The notes under the pieces: generated by a model
Databases searched by the model: none
The model's input: the letters and a program-made list of their open reading frames with translations, nothing else
What the model was told of the DNA's origin: nothing
Made by a program: the position numbers and the translations under genes
Shown here: in pieces, positions 52,160-62,359 of the stretch
How the letters are laid out: every line of letters begins with the position of its first letter
How positions within the stretch are numbered: position 1 is the stretch's first letter
Assembly (NCBI GenBank): GCA_026003235.1
Contig: BPGW01000006.1
Location: 62,001-126,000, forward strand
Length of the DNA stretch: 64,000 nt
Direction of reading: 5' to 3'
Origin: Bacteroidia bacterium
GTDB taxonomy: Bacteria > Bacteroidota > Bacteroidia > SpSt-205

Positions 52160-52996
52160 GTGCTGCCCGAGGCTTTACCGGAGATCGCGGAGGCTGACCT
52201 GGAGCGGTTTTTCCAGATCATGCAAGCCCAATTTGGGTATGACTTTCGGGGCTATGCGCCAGCCTCTCTAAAGCGCAGGTTGGGCACGGTGCTCAAGCGC
52301 TACGGCCTGAAAGACCTGCATGCCCTCAACCAGCGCCTGCTAGCTCAACCCGACTATGGCGAGCGGTTCATTAGCGAGATCACCGTTTCTACTACGGAGT
52401 TGTTTCGGGACCCCTCAGCTTGGGTAGCTTTTCGGCTGCAGGCCTTACCTCTCTTTGCCCAAGCTCCCCACCTGCGCATCTGGCATGTGGGGGCCTCCAC
52501 CGGGGAGGAAGTGCTTTCCATGGCTATCCTACTCAAGGAGACGGGCCTCTACGAGCGCGCCCATCTGTACGCCACGGATATAGACACCTACTCCCTGGCC
52601 CAGGCTCAACGCGCTCGGTATCCCCTCCGGCTGAAAAACCTCTACCAGCAAAACTTCGCCGCCGTCTTGCCTGGCGTCCCTTGGCAGCGCTACGTGAAGG
52701 AAGAGGGAAATGAAATGGTGTTTGATCCGGCGCTCTTGGAACGAGTGCGGTTTCTGAAGCACAACATCGTCTCGGAGGCCCCTTTTGCCAGCTTTGAGGT
52801 CGTGGTATGCCGAAATCTGCTGATTTACTTCACGCCTGCTTTGCAGGACCAGGTGGTGACCCGGCTGGTGGATAGCCTCATGCCGGGGGGTATTTTGATG
52901 ATTGGGACCAAGGAATCGCTTTTTTGGTGCGCTGCGGCCAAACGCCTGGTGGCCGTGAACGAGACAGAACGCATTTACCGGCGCCGTTCCCTATGA
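52160..52996 (+). CDS. CheR-type protein-glutamate methyltransferase
   Basis: FGYDFRGYAPASLKRRLGTVLKRYG; FISEITVSTTELFRDPSAW; IWHVGASTGEEVLSMAILLKE; FEVVVCRNLLIYF; LMIGTKESL. GTG start 6 nt after TAACTTAG. Confidence 0.9.
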   Translation: MLPEALPEIAEADLERFFQIMQAQFGYDFRGYAPASLKRRLGTVLKRYGLKDLHALNQRLLAQPDYGERFISEITVSTTELFRDPSAWVAFRLQALPLFAQAPHLRIWHVGASTGEEVLSMAILLKETGLYERAHLYATDIDTYSLAQAQRARYPLRLKNLYQQNFAAVLPGVPWQRYVKEEGNEMVFDPALLERVRFLKHNIVSEAPFASFEVVVCRNLLIYFTPALQDQVVTRLVDSLMPGGILMIGTKESLFWCAAAKRLVAVNETERIYRRRSL

Positions 52997-53565
52997 CCGA
53001 ACGGCCTTTTTTGTGGGTGGTGGCCGGTTCAGCGGGTAGCTTCACCCCCGCGCGGCAGTTTGTCCAAGAAATGCCCTATCGGCCCCAGGTAGCGATTGTG
53101 CTATGCCTGCATCGCATGCGAAAGCCCCGTGTGCCTATGATAGAGGCTTTTAGCCGTATACCCTACTGGCAGGTGGTGGAGCCCCAGGACAAGGACCCGA
53201 TAGAAAGCGGAAAGGTGTACCTGGCTCCGGCGGATTATCACCTCCTGGTGGAGCGAGAGGGGTACTTTAGCTTGTCGGTAGACGAACCTGTGCATTTCTC
53301 CCGGCCGAGCATAGATGTGCTCTTGGAGTCTGTGGTGGAGGCTCGTTGGCCCAGGGCCGGTGCCGTACTTCTCTCGGGCGCCAACCGAGATGGCGCATGG
53401 GGGCTCTACCTTTTCCATCGGGCGGGCTACTTCACTGCTGTGCAGGACCCCCAAGAGGCCGAAGTACCTACCATGCCCCGCGCCGCCTTGGAACTCTTTA
53501 CGCCCAATCGGCTCTGCAAAGCCCATGAGCTGGTACAAGTATGCCTTGAGGCCCTATCTTTGTAA
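52993..53565 (+). CDS. CheB-type methylesterase domain (no receiver domain)
   Basis: LWVVAGSAGSFTPARQFVQEMPYRPQVAIVLCLHRM; GKVYLAPADYHLLVEREGYFSLSVDEPVHFSRPSIDVLLESV; AVLLSGANRDGAWGLYLFHRAGYFTAVQDPQEAEVPTMPRAAL. Ser/His/Asp catalytic positions present. Confidence 0.88.
   Translation: MTERPFLWVVAGSAGSFTPARQFVQEMPYRPQVAIVLCLHRMRKPRVPMIEAFSRIPYWQVVEPQDKDPIESGKVYLAPADYHLLVEREGYFSLSVDEPVHFSRPSIDVLLESVVEARWPRAGAVLLSGANRDGAWGLYLFHRAGYFTAVQDPQEAEVPTMPRAALELFTPNRLCKAHELVQVCLEALSL
53555..53562 (+). promoter_or_regulatory. -7 box TATCTTTG, 5 nt before PEBP-family gene ATG
   Basis: gccctatctttgtaaggATGaag. Confidence 0.6.
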
Positions 53566-53567
53566 GG

Positions 53568-54053
53568 ATGAAGGTCTTATGGGCTTTGCTCGGGGCAGGT
53601 TCCCTCTTGGCCCAGATGTGGGTTCGCATAGAGGGGTACGAACGCGGGGCTTTTGTACGCCCAGAACACACCTGCGATGGGGCCAATGTGCCCCTCTCTA
53701 TCCAGTGGGGTGGGGCGCCGCCGGCTGCGCGCGCTTTTGTCGTGCGTATGTACGACCCCGACGCGCCTCAAGATACCTTTATCCACTGGCTCGTGTGTAA
53801 TGTGAAAGGCACTCAGCTGGGCCCCGGCCAAGAGGAAGGGCTCGTGGGCTACAACGACTTCGGGAAGCTGGGGTATGGGGGGCCCTGCCCGCCGGCTCGC
53901 GATGCAGCGCACCGGTACTTCGTAGAAGTGTACGCGTTGTCAGAGCCGCTAAGTGTGCGACCTCCCGTAACCTGGGAAAAGGTTCGGCCGCTTCTGGCGG
54001 GGCGCACGCTGGCCCGCAGCGAAACCTTTGTGCGATACAAGCGTAAAATGTGA
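53568..54053 (+). CDS. YbhB/YbcL-family (PEBP / RKIP-like) protein
   Basis: GAFVRPEHTCDGANVPLSIQWGGAPPAARAFVVRMYDPDAPQDTFIHWLVCNV; NDFGKLGYGGPCPP...HRYFVEVYAL. Confidence 0.92.
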   Translation: MKVLWALLGAGSLLAQMWVRIEGYERGAFVRPEHTCDGANVPLSIQWGGAPPAARAFVVRMYDPDAPQDTFIHWLVCNVKGTQLGPGQEEGLVGYNDFGKLGYGGPCPPARDAAHRYFVEVYALSEPLSVRPPVTWEKVRPLLAGRTLARSETFVRYKRKM

Positions 54054-54075
54054 AGCGGAGGCACGCTTAGCGTAC

Positions 54076-56802
54076 ATGGGTCGCTGGACTGTATCCGAGA
54101 TTCTGGGGGTGGGCATTGCGCTGATGGTGGGGGGGATGGGAGGGATTGTGCTGATGGGGCTTTGGGTTGTTACGCAGCGAGATGCGGCCCTGGCTGCGGG
54201 CGCAGAAACGTGGGCTATATGGGATCGGGCGCTGGTGTTGTGGGCTTACGGGGCCGTGGTAGCGCTCTTGGGCCTGGCCGTCGCCATGGGGCTGTGGTGG
54301 TGGCGAAGGCTCGGACGCGGCCTTTTGGGGCTCCAAGAAGGATGGCGGGGGCTCCTGTGGGAGGACCGCGCCCCTTCGGAGCCGCTCCCCGTCCCTTTCC
54401 AGGAAGCCGAAGAGCCTGCGCGAGCCCTCCTCCTCTTCAAGGAGGTGATCGCGGTCTGGCAGGAGATAGGACGGGGAGAACGAACCAGCCTGCCCCCTCA
54501 AAGCGCAGCGTGGCCCCCTGTCCTGCGGCAGGCTTTTGCCCAGATGCTGGCCCAGCTGGCCTGGCACAAACAGCGCCACACCCTTTGGCAAAGCCTCTGG
54601 CAAAAGGCCTTGGACATGTTGCGCCTGGCTCAGCGGGAAACAGACCTGGTTCGCTATCTGGAACGGGTGGGCCCCGCTTTTCTGCAGGGGATAGGGGCGA
54701 CCATGGGGGCTTACTATCGCCTGGAAGGGGACCGACTTCGCCGCATCTATCAGTACGCTTATCCCCCAGAAGCCCCTGACGCCTTCCAGGTAGGCGAAGG
54801 GTGGATAGGCCAAGCCGCTCGCGAAGGGCAGGCTTTGTGGCTGGCAGACCTGCCCAGCGGATACCTGGAAGCGCTCTCTGGACTTGGGCGTGTCAGGCCT
54901 CGAGCGGTAGCGGTGGTGCCCGTTATCGCCGGCGAAAGCATCCATGGCGTGTGGGACCTGGCAAGCCTCTCAGAGTGGGAACCTGCCCAACAGGAAGCGG
55001 CCCAGATGCTGGTAGCGGTTTTTTCTGCAGGGGTTCTGCTGGTCCAAGAGGCCCAGAAAGAAGCCCAGGCCCACGCCCAACTCCATCGCCTCCAGGCCGA
55101 AGCGGCCCAAAAAGCCACGGAATACCAGGCCTTGCTGGAGCGGTTCAGGGGCCTGGAAGAGGAGCGGCGGCTGCTGAGCCAAGCCCTGGCCGAAAAGCAG
55201 GCTATGCTTCAGCAGGCCGAAAAACGCGCCGCCCTTGAAGAGGCCCGCTGGCAGCTGGTCGCCTCTCACCTGTCAGAAGCCTTGCTCTTTTTTGATGCGG
55301 TGGGACGCCCTCGGTATCTCAGCCCAAGCGTGACCTCCCTTTTAGGTTACCTCCCTCATGAATTGGAAGTTTTTTTCCGCTACATAGACAAAGCAGACAT
55401 TCAAGAGGTGCGCGATTTTTTTGCCAAGCTCTTGCGATCCCCCGGCGAAACCCTTTCCTTGCGTTTTCGCTATCTGCACAAGAAGGGCCATATCGTTTGG
55501 CTGGAGGCCCAAGCTTGCAATTACTTGCAAGATCCGGCCCTGCAAGCCATTCTTGTTGTGCTTCGGGACGTCTCTACCCAGGTGGAGTACGAAAAGCAGT
55601 ACCGTACCCGGCTCAAGTTCCAGTCTCTCGTGGAAAATTCCACCGATATCATTTTCCGGCTGGACCGGGGAGGTACGTTTCTTTATGCTAACCCCACCAT
55701 TGAGCGCTATACCGGCTATTCGCCGGCCCATTACATTCGCAATACCATCTATTCGGTGGGGTTCTCCATCCAGGAGGTACAGTTTTGGGAAGGGTTTATC
55801 CGAGAGGTTTTTGAGAGCATGCAGGTTACTTCCGCCGAGATAGACTTTCCTTCCATATACGGGACGCGCCGAATGATGGTTCGGGGTATTCCGGAGGTGG
55901 GCCCCGAAGGCGAAGTGGAGACGCTGGTGGTGCTTTTGCAAGACATTACAGAGCTGAGGCAGGTGCAGCAGCAGCTTCACCAGCAGAACCTTCGCCTGGA
56001 GCAGGCGAGGGTGGAATTGGAACGCCAGAAAAAAGAACTGGAGGAGCGCAACCGGGACATCATGGAGAGCATTGCCTACGCTCGGCGCATTCAGGGGGCG
56101 CTCATCCCTGGAGAGGAAGGTTTGCGAGCCCTCTTTCCGGATAGCTTTGTCCTGCACTGGCTGAGAGATGTGGTAGGCGGAGACTTTTACTGGTATGGAG
56201 AGTCTGAGGGTCAGATCATCGTGGCGGTGGTGGACTGTACTGGGCACGGGGTGCCAGGGGCTTTCATGACTTTTTTGGGGTACACGCTCCTGGAGGGGGC
56301 TGTGCGTGAGCGAAAGCTCACCGATCCGGCGGCGATTTTGTACGATATGGATGGCCGGTTGCGCGAGCTTTTGGCTAGCCAAGAAGCTATTCAGGATGGC
56401 ATGGATGTGGCTCTGTGCGTGATAGATCGCCATCGGCAGATCCTCCGGTTTGCCGGAGCGCACCGCCCGCTTCTGATGCAGCAAGAAGGACGATGGCTTC
56501 TTGTACAGGGGGCCCCTGCCGGCCTAGGAGGAGCTCCCTGGCTGGAAGAAGTGAAAACCTTCACCACCCACACCTTTTCCTACCGGCCTGGTGACCTGGT
56601 CTACCTTTACACCGACGGCTACCCCGATCAGTTCGGAGAAGGAGGCAAACGCTACACCCACCGGCGCTTTCGTCAGCAGCTGGCCGTGTGGGCTTCCTTG
56701 CCGATGGCCCAGCAGCGAGAACGGCTCATAGAAGAACTTCGCACCTGGATGGGGGATACTCCCCCTACCGATGATATCACCGTCCTCGGCCTGCGTTTGT
56801 GA
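54076..56802 (+). CDS. SiaA/RsbU-like PP2C (SpoIIE) phosphatase with TM, GAF and two PAS domains
   Basis: TM helices at N-term; GAF-like LVRYLERVGPAFLQGIGATMGAYY; PAS LSEALLFFDAVGRPRYLSPSVTSLLGY and FQSLVENSTDIIFRLDRGGTFLYANPTIERYTGY; C-term VVGGDFYWYGESEGQIIVAVVDCTGHGVPGAFMTFLGYTLL...DDITVLGLRL. Confidence 0.9.
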   Translation: MGRWTVSEILGVGIALMVGGMGGIVLMGLWVVTQRDAALAAGAETWAIWDRALVLWAYGAVVALLGLAVAMGLWWWRRLGRGLLGLQEGWRGLLWEDRAPSEPLPVPFQEAEEPARALLLFKEVIAVWQEIGRGERTSLPPQSAAWPPVLRQAFAQMLAQLAWHKQRHTLWQSLWQKALDMLRLAQRETDLVRYLERVGPAFLQGIGATMGAYYRLEGDRLRRIYQYAYPPEAPDAFQVGEGWIGQAAREGQALWLADLPSGYLEALSGLGRVRPRAVAVVPVIAGESIHGVWDLASLSEWEPAQQEAAQMLVAVFSAGVLLVQEAQKEAQAHAQLHRLQAEAAQKATEYQALLERFRGLEEERRLLSQALAEKQAMLQQAEKRAALEEARWQLVASHLSEALLFFDAVGRPRYLSPSVTSLLGYLPHELEVFFRYIDKADIQEVRDFFAKLLRSPGETLSLRFRYLHKKGHIVWLEAQACNYLQDPALQAILVVLRDVSTQVEYEKQYRTRLKFQSLVENSTDIIFRLDRGGTFLYANPTIERYTGYSPAHYIRNTIYSVGFSIQEVQFWEGFIREVFESMQVTSAEIDFPSIYGTRRMMVRGIPEVGPEGEVETLVVLLQDITELRQVQQQLHQQNLRLEQARVELERQKKELEERNRDIMESIAYARRIQGALIPGEEGLRALFPDSFVLHWLRDVVGGDFYWYGESEGQIIVAVVDCTGHGVPGAFMTFLGYTLLEGAVRERKLTDPAAILYDMDGRLRELLASQEAIQDGMDVALCVIDRHRQILRFAGAHRPLLMQQEGRWLLVQGAPAGLGGAPWLEEVKTFTTHTFSYRPGDLVYLYTDGYPDQFGEGGKRYTHRRFRQQLAVWASLPMAQQRERLIEELRTWMGDTPPTDDITVLGLRL

Positions 56803-56820: not shown

Positions 56821-57396
56821 GTGGTTATGGATGCTTTACAGTCCAGCCTCTTGCACCAGTCGGCCCTCTCCTACGCTTACCCCCTCTACCGAAACCTCCT
56901 GGATAATAGCATTGTCTTCTTGTACCATGGCCCCATTACGCCTGACCTGGTGGTGGATATCTTGAGCCTCGTAGAGAATAGACTTGATGATACAGGTGAA
57001 GATCGCCGCATTAGCAAAAAGCTCTTCAATATCATGGTGGAATCTTTCAGTTTGGGAGAGGATGTGGAAAGGGGGCATGCGGTTCTCCTGGTGCGTCAGC
57101 TACCTTACCTGTATACGGTCGCCATCGGCCGCAGAATCGCCAGCTCAGCCGTCTATCAAGTCAAGGCGTTTCTGGATTGGGTCAACACCCTCTCCCCGGA
57201 AGCCCTCCGGGAAGCGTATCAGCGCCAGCTTGAAAAAGACGACCCCCGAAACCTCTCCTTGGTGGGAGGCGTGCCGGCTATCAGCATCCTGGACCTGGCT
57301 AGGAAGTCTCACGGCATACTGAACTACAACTTTGAGTACCTCAACGATAGTGATACTTTCTTTTCCCTTGAAGCCAGACTGCAAAAAACTATATAG
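56821..57396 (+). CDS. SiaB-family (GHKL-fold) protein kinase paralogue 1, N-box and G-box degenerate
   Basis: IVFLYHGPITPDLVVDILSLVENRLDDTGEDRRISKKLFNIMVESFSLGEDV...; aligns with 57789-58352 protein. GTG 56821 or ATG 56827 are alternative starts. Confidence 0.75.
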   Translation: MVMDALQSSLLHQSALSYAYPLYRNLLDNSIVFLYHGPITPDLVVDILSLVENRLDDTGEDRRISKKLFNIMVESFSLGEDVERGHAVLLVRQLPYLYTVAIGRRIASSAVYQVKAFLDWVNTLSPEALREAYQRQLEKDDPRNLSLVGGVPAISILDLARKSHGILNYNFEYLNDSDTFFSLEARLQKTI

Positions 57397-57399
57397 CCT

Positions 57400-57783
57400 A
57401 TGGAAGCCCTGCGTATAGAATCTACCCACAAGACTCCTCGAGTGATTCTGGATCCGGAAAATGGTATTTTTGAGTTTTCGGGCCGGAGCATTCCAGAAGA
57501 CTCGGTGGGTTTTTACACCCCCATCTTTGAATGGCTTGACAAGTACGCCCAACAGCCTTTGCCGCTCACCCATGTGCGCTTTGATCTGGAGTATTTCAAC
57601 ACCAGCTCTTCCAAAAACATCTTGGAAATCCTCAAACGGCTTGAGGCCATTCATGCAGCAGGCCACGAGGTGCGCGTGACTTGGTACTACGACGAAGACG
57701 ATGAGGACATGGAAGAGACCGGACAGGATTACCAAGCGCTCCTCAACCTTCCTATAGAACTCTCGGTGAAAGTCCAATCATAG
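57400..57783 (+). CDS. SiaC-family (DUF1987) regulatory phosphoprotein 1
   Basis: IESTHKTPRVILDPENGIFEFSGRSIPEDSVGFYTPIFEWLDKY...LEYFNTSSSKNILEILKRLEAIHAAGHEVRVTWYYDEDDEDMEETGQDYQALL. Confidence 0.88.
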   Translation: MEALRIESTHKTPRVILDPENGIFEFSGRSIPEDSVGFYTPIFEWLDKYAQQPLPLTHVRFDLEYFNTSSSKNILEILKRLEAIHAAGHEVRVTWYYDEDDEDMEETGQDYQALLNLPIELSVKVQS

Positions 57784-57788
57784 CGCCT

Positions 57789-58352
57789 ATGAGCATGACT
57801 TATAGCTACTACAAGAACATGCAGCTGAATAACATCATTTTCGTCTACCAAGGCGAAGTGACAGCTGACTTGGTCTCCTCCATCTTGCAAATGATAGAAA
57901 ACAAGCTGGAGGGCGAGGGGGAAGACCGAAAGGTCAAAAAGCGGGTCTTCAATGTGATGGTGGAGTGCTTGCAAAATGTCTATCACCATTTAGATGCTCT
58001 GCCGCCTACCGACCCCAACAATCCGGTAAAAGATAAAACGGCGCTTTTGATGATTGGAAGGGAAGAGAAGGACTACTACATCATTACGGGCAACCATATT
58101 TTGAACGACCGCATTCCCGAGCTCAAGGCGCGTTTGGATCGCATCAACCGGGCCACCAAAGAGGAGCTCAAGCAATTGTACCAGGAAGTGCTCACCGGTT
58201 CAGGTTTCTCGGAAAAAGGTACAGCGGGATTAGGCATCATTGATATTGCCCGCAAATCCGGGCAAAAGCTGGGTTATGACTTCCATCCCGTCAATGACAG
58301 GTACTCCTTTTTCAGCCTGGAAGCGCGAGTGTCCCGCATCCCCGAGAAGTAG
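57789..58352 (+). CDS. SiaB-family protein kinase paralogue 2, canonical N-box/G-box
   Basis: IIFVYQGEVTADLVSSILQMIENKLEGEGEDRKVKKRVFNVMVECLQNVYHH; GSGFSEKGTAGLGIIDIARKSGQKLGYDF. Confidence 0.85.
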   Translation: MSMTYSYYKNMQLNNIIFVYQGEVTADLVSSILQMIENKLEGEGEDRKVKKRVFNVMVECLQNVYHHLDALPPTDPNNPVKDKTALLMIGREEKDYYIITGNHILNDRIPELKARLDRINRATKEELKQLYQEVLTGSGFSEKGTAGLGIIDIARKSGQKLGYDFHPVNDRYSFFSLEARVSRIPEK

Positions 58353-58369: not shown

Positions 58370-58744
58370 ATGCGAAACTTAGTGATCGAGCCTACCTCCA
58401 AAACCCCCAAGGTCATCTTGAACGCCGACTTGGGTATTTTTGAGATTACGGGACGCAGTATCCCGGAGGATGCTATTGGTTTTTACCGAAAGGTACTGGA
58501 CTGGATAGAAGAGTATAGCAAATCTCCTTTGCCTGAAACGACTTTCAAGTTTCACTTGGAGTACTTCAATACCAGCTCATCCAAATGTCTCCTTGATATT
58601 TTCCGCAAGCTGGAGCGCATGCATAAAGCCGGGCACAAGGTCACCATTCGGTGGCACTATGACGCCGACGACGAAGACATGGCCGAAACCGGTCAAGACT
58701 ACCAGGCCCTTCTCGATGTGCCCTTTGAACTGGTTCCGGTATGA
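58370..58744 (+). CDS. SiaC-family (DUF1987) regulatory phosphoprotein 2
   Basis: IEPTSKTPKVILNADLGIFEITGRSIPEDAIGFYRKVLDWIEEY...LEYFNTSSSKCLLDIFRKLERMHKAGHKVTIRWHYDADDEDMAETGQDYQALL. Confidence 0.88.
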   Translation: MRNLVIEPTSKTPKVILNADLGIFEITGRSIPEDAIGFYRKVLDWIEEYSKSPLPETTFKFHLEYFNTSSSKCLLDIFRKLERMHKAGHKVTIRWHYDADDEDMAETGQDYQALLDVPFELVPV

Positions 58745-59196
58745 AAGATCAATACTTCCCTGAAGAGACCGCCTTCTTGGAAGCGGCCCGGAATCGCGCC
58801 GAGCAAGGGGGGCTTTCCGTCCAAGCCTGGCGGGAGGCTTATCAGCAGCTTGTGGAAAATTATGAGAACCTTCTAAAAGTTGTTCAGGTTCTGACCCATC
58901 AAGCTACGCAGCTGGAAGCTAAACTTGAAAAAGCGCGGGCCCAGCTTGAGCTTCAGCGAAAAGCGCTTGCATCGGAAGTGGAAGGTTTAGAGAAGCAGAT
59001 ACAAGTGAAGCAAAAGGAAGTTCATAAAAAGGCCGAGGAGCGCAATGTTTTATACGATAGAATGGAGCGTACCCGCATGATGCTCATTGTGCTTTTTGCG
59101 GCTCTCCTCGTTATTGTGGGCTTCATGGCTTATTACCTCTTTGTTGACACCGACAAGATGATAAGTCTAGTCAAAAAACTCCGGGGGCTGGAATGA
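58741..59196 (+). CDS. Coiled-coil protein with C-terminal TM helix (paralogue A)
   Basis: FPEETAFLEAARNRAEQGGLSVQAWREAYQQLVENYENLLKVVQVLTHQATQLEAKLEKA...MMLIVLFAALLVIVGFMAYYLFV. Overlaps SiaC2 stop (ATGA). Confidence 0.6.
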   Translation: MKDQYFPEETAFLEAARNRAEQGGLSVQAWREAYQQLVENYENLLKVVQVLTHQATQLEAKLEKARAQLELQRKALASEVEGLEKQIQVKQKEVHKKAEERNVLYDRMERTRMMLIVLFAALLVIVGFMAYYLFVDTDKMISLVKKLRGLE

Positions 59197-59232: not shown

Positions 59233-59700
59233 ATGAGCAGCAGTAGCCGTCGCGACCTCTTTGCCGAGGAGACCCAGCTTTTACAAGAAGCGCGCCTGAC
59301 CTTGGCTCGCGTCGATCTGAGCGAAGCCGACTGGCAAGCCGAATACAAAAAAATGGTGGAAGAGTACGAAAAACTCCTTGGCGAAGCCCGTACGCTGACT
59401 CGCATCGCAGACCGCAATCAACGCCGCTTGGACGAAATGAATGCAGAGCTGGAGCGGCAAACCCAACTACTCAAACAAAAAGAAGAAGAAGCCAAAAAAG
59501 CCCAAAAGGCCATCGTACAGAATTATGAGCGCATTATACAGGATCAAACGATCATGGACAAAAGGGTAGGTCGCATTCAGATTGCGCTGGTGGTGATGAT
59601 AGCTATCTTGACGGTGATGATTTTGTTTATGCTCTACTACTTTATCTTCGAGCCTCAGCGCGCTGTTGAGCTGATGGAAATGATAAAGAAAAAGCAGTAA
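59233..59700 (+). CDS. Coiled-coil protein with C-terminal TM helix (paralogue B)
   Basis: LFAEETQLLQEARLTLARVDLSEADWQAEYKKMVEEYEKLLGEARTLTRIADRNQRRLDEMNAELERQ...IQIALVVMIAILTVMILFMLYYFIF; N-terminus homologous to preceding ORF. Confidence 0.6.
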   Translation: MSSSSRRDLFAEETQLLQEARLTLARVDLSEADWQAEYKKMVEEYEKLLGEARTLTRIADRNQRRLDEMNAELERQTQLLKQKEEEAKKAQKAIVQNYERIIQDQTIMDKRVGRIQIALVVMIAILTVMILFMLYYFIFEPQRAVELMEMIKKKQ

Positions 59701-61790: not shown

Positions 61791-62359
61791 ACTACACTAT
61801 CCAGCCCCACGGCGAAGCGGTGGTCTTTCGCCTGCAGGAGCCTCGTTTGAATGCCTCCCATGCGCCCGAACTCAAAGCCGCTCTCACTGTGCTGGCGCAT
61901 GAGCACCAGGGCCCTGTGGTTGTAGATTTGTCTGCTGTCCAAAGCCTGGACAGTGCGGTTCTAAGCGCTTTGCTACTTTTGCGGCGCCTCCTGGAGGGAC
62001 AGGGCCGGCCTCTCGCCCTCGTGGCCCCAACCCCCGGAGTGCAGTCCGTTTTTTCTCTCTCTCGCCTAAATGAAATTTTTACGCTTATGCAGTCGATAGA
62101 TGAAGCCCTCTTGTACCTGCAAAATCAAGCCTCTCTCCTCATGAAGAAGAAAGCCGAAGAAGAGGAAGAAGAGTTTGACGAAGAAGAGGATTGGGACGAA
62201 GAAGAGCTGGAGGATTGGGAAGAGGAGGAAGAGGACTGGGAGGAGGATTGGGACGAGGAAGACTGGGATGAAGAGGAGTGGGACGAAGAGGACTGGGAAG
62301 AAGAGGAAGAGGACTGGGAAGGAGAGGAGGAGGACGAAGACGAAGAGGAGGAAGAGTAA
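61787..62359 (+). CDS. STAS-domain protein with extreme D/E/W-rich acidic C-terminal tail
   Basis: MNYTIQPHGEAVVFRLQEPRLNASHAPELKAALTVLAHEHQGPVVVDLSAVQSLDSAVLSALLLLRRLLEGQGRPLALVAPTPGVQSVFSLSRLNEIFTLMQSIDEALLYL then EEEEEEFDEEEDWDEEELEDWEEEEEDWEEDWDEEDW... ATG 61787 overlaps the MBL stop. Confidence 0.85.
   Translation: MNYTIQPHGEAVVFRLQEPRLNASHAPELKAALTVLAHEHQGPVVVDLSAVQSLDSAVLSALLLLRRLLEGQGRPLALVAPTPGVQSVFSLSRLNEIFTLMQSIDEALLYLQNQASLLMKKKAEEEEEEFDEEEDWDEEELEDWEEEEEDWEEDWDEEDWDEEEWDEEDWEEEEEDWEGEEEDEDEEEEE

Follow-up and report, generated by a model that had tools for sequence, protein, structure and literature searches.

In the window (the whole 64,000-nucleotide stretch of DNA that we analysed), a gene for a SiaA-like sensor phosphatase is followed by two consecutive siaB-siaC pairs and two coiled-coil genes. 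SiaB is a bacterial threonine kinase of a type described only recently, and the first of the two SiaB proteins, SiaB1, carries a degenerate nucleotide site. The features of the locus are as follows:

52160, plus strand: cheR, upstream of the siaA-like gene
52924, plus strand: cheB
53568, plus strand: PEBP-like gene
54028-56802, plus strand: siaA-like sensor phosphatase with GAF, PAS, PAS and C-terminal SpoIIE/PP2C domains (Pfam PF07228 at 6e-24, GAF, PAS)
56827-57396, plus strand: siaB1, SiaB/DUF6272-family pseudokinase of 189 aa, upstream of siaC1, siaB2 and siaC2
57034-57063, plus strand: degenerate N-box of siaB1, MVESFSLGED, with Glu kept and Asn and His lost, followed by a deletion
57094-57135, plus strand: siaB1 segment RQLPYLYTVAIGRR, conserved and genus-specific, with Arg in place of the G1-like Asn
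57259-57309, plus strand: degenerate glycine-rich loop of siaB1, LVGGVPAISI, then the conserved LDLARKS
57400-57783, plus strand: siaC1, SiaC/DUF1987 phosphoprotein, Thr68 codon at 57601 (PF09345, 3e-42)
57789-58352, plus strand: siaB2, canonical SiaB threonine kinase
58370-58744, plus strand: siaC2, SiaC/DUF1987 phosphoprotein, Thr68 codon at 58571 (PF09345, 2e-43)
58741-59196, plus strand: CC1, judged from its sequence to have a coiled coil and a single transmembrane segment; a paralogue of CC2 with the motif region altered (HQATQLE)
59233-59700, plus strand: CC2, judged from its sequence to have a coiled coil and a single transmembrane segment, with RIADRNQ at 59401-59421

The siaA-like product matches NF038263 at 2e-59, the match spanning its C-terminal phosphatase part, and its gene lies next to siaB1 in every species of the genus, 11 in all. 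Judging from relatives, siaB1 probably starts at the ATG at 56827 rather than at the listed GTG at 56821. A third siaB-siaC pair lies elsewhere in the same genome (L043:3382-4872, C1, minus strand) and is followed by a coiled-coil membrane protein of its own. Also in the window (61802-62359) is a STAS-domain protein whose long tail is of low complexity, made up of Asp, Glu and Trp.

The initial annotation described SiaB1 as an apparent pseudokinase that had lost its N-box and glycine-rich loop, next to a canonical SiaB2. Both segments on which it relied are present in the plus frame, namely LFNIMVESFSLGEDV, which includes the N-box MVESFSLGED, and LVGGVPAISILDLARKS (nt 57259-57309). The loop is indeed altered, from GTAGLG in SiaB2 (GxxGLG type) to a VGGxPxIS-like sequence, and SiaB2 is canonical, with its N-box MVECLQNVYHH, TGN and GTAGLG intact and a PF19788 score of 144 bits. 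Loss of the N-box was overstated: the Asn four positions after the Glu and the His are gone, but the Glu is retained as E72, which aligns with the predicted catalytic E61 of Pseudomonas aeruginosa SiaB. To these we add a third degenerate element, the G1-like GN (TGNHI in SiaB2), which reads GR in SiaB1 (AIGRR). The two proteins share 34% identity, with a 13-residue gap immediately after the SiaB1 N-box; this deletion could lie near the SiaC-binding surface.

Family profiles reflect the same departure. SiaB1 reaches the Pfam gathering score of PF19788 (SiaB/DUF6272; 49.3 bits, with the cut-off at 26.6) and falls under the curated cut-off of NF038262 (SiaB family protein kinase; 75.8 against 85 bits), where SiaB2 scores 170.2. 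In 11 of 11 species SiaB1 departs from the motif set of an active SiaB, consisting of the N-box Glu/Asn/His, the G1-like Asn and the GxxGLG loop. The N-box Asn is retained in 106 of 120 distinct DUF6272 domains, and the 14 domains that lack it are the 11 SiaB1 proteins of the genus and three others. When positions at least 90% conserved in other SiaB proteins were scored, SiaB1 of the genus had lost 9 of 12 nucleotide-motif positions versus 1 of the 11 outside the motifs (Fisher's test, p = 0.003, indicative only because the sequences are related), and its orthologues outside the genus 5 of 12 versus 0 of 11.

The kinase fold is nevertheless kept. An AlphaFold2 model of SiaB1 (mean pLDDT 78.5) has P. 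aeruginosa SiaB (6kko_A) as its top PDB match at an E value of 8e-9, and the SiaB2 model finds the same structure at 4e-12; TM scores to chain A of 6kko are 0.69-0.77 for SiaB1 and 0.77-0.83 for SiaB2. The N-box helix spans 18 residues in the SiaB1 model versus 24 in that of SiaB2, although models built on 13-sequence alignments, with a mean pLDDT near 78, do not warrant interpretation in fine detail. Judged by its motifs, SiaB1 has in all likelihood lost nucleotide binding in this genus.

The operon, CC1 and CC2 included, occurs in identical gene order in all 11 genomes of the genus, whose named members, KatS3mg025 and the SKYB, SKYG and SKW isolates among them, are Bacteroidia MAGs; going by the names, we take these to come from hot-spring or thermal samples. 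The SiaB1 motif losses are common to these 11 independently assembled species, so that neither sequencing error nor a frameshift, already rejected in the initial annotation, accounts for them. R90, Q91, L92, P93, Y94, G101 and R102 of SiaB1 are invariant across the genus. Within the genus, SiaB1 proteins share 70% amino-acid identity on average, compared with 93-95% for SiaB2, SiaC1 and SiaC2. The pN/pS ratio is about 0.24 for SiaB1 versus 0.045 for SiaB2, a rough guide only since synonymous sites are saturated; SiaB1 differences per site amount to 0.138 at second and 0.605 at third codon positions. Mean dN (0.234 versus 0.039) indicates protein-level evolution about six times faster in SiaB1 than in SiaB2. 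Purifying selection on SiaB1 is therefore clear, though looser than on its neighbours, and its faster evolution could reflect a new partner.

Five further Bacteroidia families yielded orthologues when a SiaB1 profile was searched against 395 genomes of the class; seven genomes are involved, each with the order B1-C1-B2-C2, which brings the total to 18 SiaB1 proteins (11 in the genus and 7 outside). Their glycine loop is altered in every family, and the other two elements read:

Family f49: N-box ECLRNVYFDE, G1-like residue N
Family f74: N-box ECLTNVYVDE, G1-like residue N
Family f68: N-box ECLTNVYLDE, G1-like residue S
Family f67: N-box ECLTNVYAE, G1-like residue S
Family f79: N-box ECFQGVYQEV, G1-like residue R

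The orthologues that keep the N-box Asn, those of four of the five families, may retain some nucleotide binding. In a tree that took in 14 of the 18, SiaB1 formed a monophyletic clade with support of 100/99, also after removal of the motif columns and of four rows that were long or degenerate, which argues against long-branch attraction and answers the question raised in the initial annotation of whether the degenerate copies form a conserved clade of their own. SiaB2 likewise formed one clade at 100/99 under the same treatment. One very long row (L081_N) fell inside the SiaB1 clade in the first tree, a placement that we do not believe. SiaC1 and SiaC2 form two separate groups (99/97), in agreement with duplication of a siaB-siaC cassette, which predicts such a grouping. 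Some other SiaB proteins scored fairly well in a phylum-wide search; among these the copy in family f17 (L020, G027) is canonical.

The N-box Asn is also missing from the second SiaB of another B-C-B-C operon (L084) and from L091. Both fall outside the SiaB1 clade, so copies without this residue arose more than once. In L081, a fused SiaB-SiaB protein, the N-terminal half lacks the N-box Asn and the C-terminal half is intact. Arg at the G1-like position was found in SiaB1 of the genus, in SiaB1 of f79 and in the separate dead copy L084:4034, and in none of the 106 DUF6272 domains that keep the N-box Asn. Fusions of one SiaB domain to another (L060-L083) are common in Bacteroidia, mostly with the N-box Asn in both halves, and in some of them the glycine loops of the second half are altered. 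In another genome of the same order (L047, G012), one SiaB gene is followed by three consecutive SiaC genes.

P. aeruginosa SiaC is phosphorylated at Thr68 (PMC7647112), and this residue (NTSS site) is intact, at the same residue number, in SiaC1, SiaC2 and all their orthologues. SiaC1 evolves as slowly as SiaC2. No GGDEF protein was detected in the genus, whose 11 genomes include 8 that are at least 90% complete; the output of the operon is therefore something other than a cyclase of the SiaD type. The stalk of P. aeruginosa SiaD is helical and serves as the docking site for SiaC, with R80, I81, S82, D83, R84, Y85 and Q86 among the residues involved (PMC8457831). The RIADRNQ of CC2, within its presumed coiled coil, resembles these docking residues, and CC2 homologues beside the operon in other families carry KVSDKLE, KISDKLE, KTADKLE or KTSDRQQ; RMGDRLQ is found in the coiled-coil protein that follows the third siaB-siaC pair of the same genome. 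A regular expression for the SiaD-like motif was weakly enriched in ORFs within 250 bp of siaC (4 of 68 versus 15 of 837 ORFs, p = 0.048), the four being homologues of one another, and CC2 of the window stands outside the 250 bp limit since CC1 separates it from siaC2. Given this weak enrichment, the motif is a lead rather than a result, and CC2 may be regarded as a candidate SiaC target and output of the operon.

CC1 matches the CC2 profile at 6e-25; the SiaD-like motif is lost from CC1 and kept in CC2, and next to the operons of other families a CC2-like copy alone was found. PDB searches with the single CC1 and CC2 sequences returned chance coiled coils only. At least three genomes (L139, L141, L142), from two other families, also have homologues of cheR-cheB (52160-53565 in the window) adjoining the operon. 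Neither a chemoreceptor (PF00015) nor CheW was found in the 11 genomes of the genus, and the orphan CheR-CheB pair may modify SiaA or another sensor.

Taken together, sequence, phylogeny and selection strongly support the reading of SiaB1 as a pseudokinase. That it has a conserved function is close to certain, and since it is kept under selection in 11 species and occurs in less decayed form in five other families, this "dead" kinase very probably performs a regulatory function in its own right. Either role proposed in the initial annotation, sequestering or scaffolding SiaC1 or controlling SiaB2, is plausible and would fit the intact Thr68 of SiaC1, its slow evolution and the position of SiaB2 as the only canonical SiaB of the operon.

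The mechanism that we infer as likeliest, with about even confidence, makes SiaB1 a non-catalytic subunit that holds SiaC, either by itself or as part of a SiaB1:SiaB2 dimer, and leaves the kinase role to SiaB2. According to this model, duplication of the siaB-siaC cassette gave rise to SiaB1, whose nucleotide site would then have been lost stepwise. As SiaB1 retains the SiaB fold and the Glu that should face the threonine of SiaC, it would still bind unphosphorylated SiaC, SiaC1 foremost, and without use of ATP it would neither phosphorylate nor release it. It would thus serve as a stoichiometric holder in competition with the downstream target, and the threshold of the switch would be set by it; SiaB2 would act as kinase for both SiaC proteins and SiaA as phosphatase. 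In P. aeruginosa the SiaB-SiaC complex forms without ATP and dissociates upon addition of ATP and Mg (PMC7647112); because SiaC is released there when ATP and Mg permit its phosphorylation, a SiaB that lacks ATP chemistry and retains the Glu is expected to hold it.

The role of SiaB1 could instead be mainly allosteric, the dead half of a SiaB1:SiaB2 heterodimer raising or lowering the activity of SiaB2 rather than holding SiaC. By analogy this has some appeal, as P. aeruginosa SiaB and SiaC form a 2:2 complex (PMC7647112), and RsbW3, a mycobacterial kinase-negative RsbW homologue, binds RsbW1, for which its authors proposed a heterodimer (PMC7693655). The tandem and fused SiaB-SiaB proteins of Bacteroidia, several of which occur with a single SiaC, and the L081 fusion of a dead with a live domain point in the same direction. 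However, a siaC1 neighbour is kept in every SiaB1 operon found, suggesting a link to SiaC1, and we consider a mainly allosteric role rather unlikely, though the next likeliest after that of a holder.

It is improbable that SiaB1 binds nucleotide or phosphorylates SiaC1 through an unusual mechanism. ATP binding is known for some eukaryotic pseudokinases, the putative catalytic Glu does not vary, and of the four families that keep the N-box Asn two (f49 and f74) also have the G1-like Asn; in the genus, however, Asn, His, the G1-like Asn and the glycine loop are all missing, and the modelled N-box helix is shorter. An equally doubtful proposal is that the former ATP pocket, with its conserved Arg (RQLPY...GRR), has gained a new binding function and reads another ligand, for example SiaC phosphorylated at Thr68. 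The invariant residues 90-94 and 101-102 and the recurrent replacement of the G1-like Asn by Arg would suit such a function, although the Arg may have a structural role alone. That SiaB1 is a reader or holder beside the writer SiaB2 and the eraser SiaA, its pocket having been repurposed stepwise, for example for phospho-SiaC, would likewise be a long shot. Finally, a decaying pseudogene or an assembly artefact, which the faster evolution of SiaB1 might suggest, has a negligible probability, since the frame is intact, codon positions 1 and 2 are constrained, and the gene with its losses occupies the same place in all 11 species.

In the open-access literature searched, no paper naming a SiaB pseudokinase or DUF6272 came up. 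Living families whose ATP site ranges from nearly intact to fully dismantled offer a natural series of a partner-switching kinase becoming a regulator. In this genus the Sia module seems to operate with no diguanylate cyclase at all, and the membrane coiled-coil gene that accompanies it encodes a possible SiaC target.

In principle, kinase-negative partner-switching paralogues are already known. RsbW3 of the Mycobacterium smegmatis SigF system (PMC7693655) is one such protein and works through protein-protein binding; unlike SiaB1, it belongs to the RsbW family, is encoded at a locus of its own and acts on an anti-sigma factor. The GHKL anti-sigma kinases SpoIIAB and RsbW resemble SiaB1 in a related fold, seen as weak Foldseek matches, and in a phospho-switch with a STAS-like partner, but they are of a different family and SiaB1 lacks the nucleotide motifs. 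The closest likeness is to P. aeruginosa SiaB (PA0171; PDB 6kko; NF038264) of the SiaABCD pathway, with which SiaB1 shares fold, family, SiaA and Thr68-bearing SiaC as neighbours, and the equivalent of Glu61. That protein is an active kinase, whereas SiaB1 is degenerate; the output of the SiaABCD biofilm pathway is the diguanylate cyclase SiaD, a GGDEF output of the kind not found here; and the P. aeruginosa operon has one SiaB and one SiaC that act on SiaD, whereas the operon described here has two B-C pairs.
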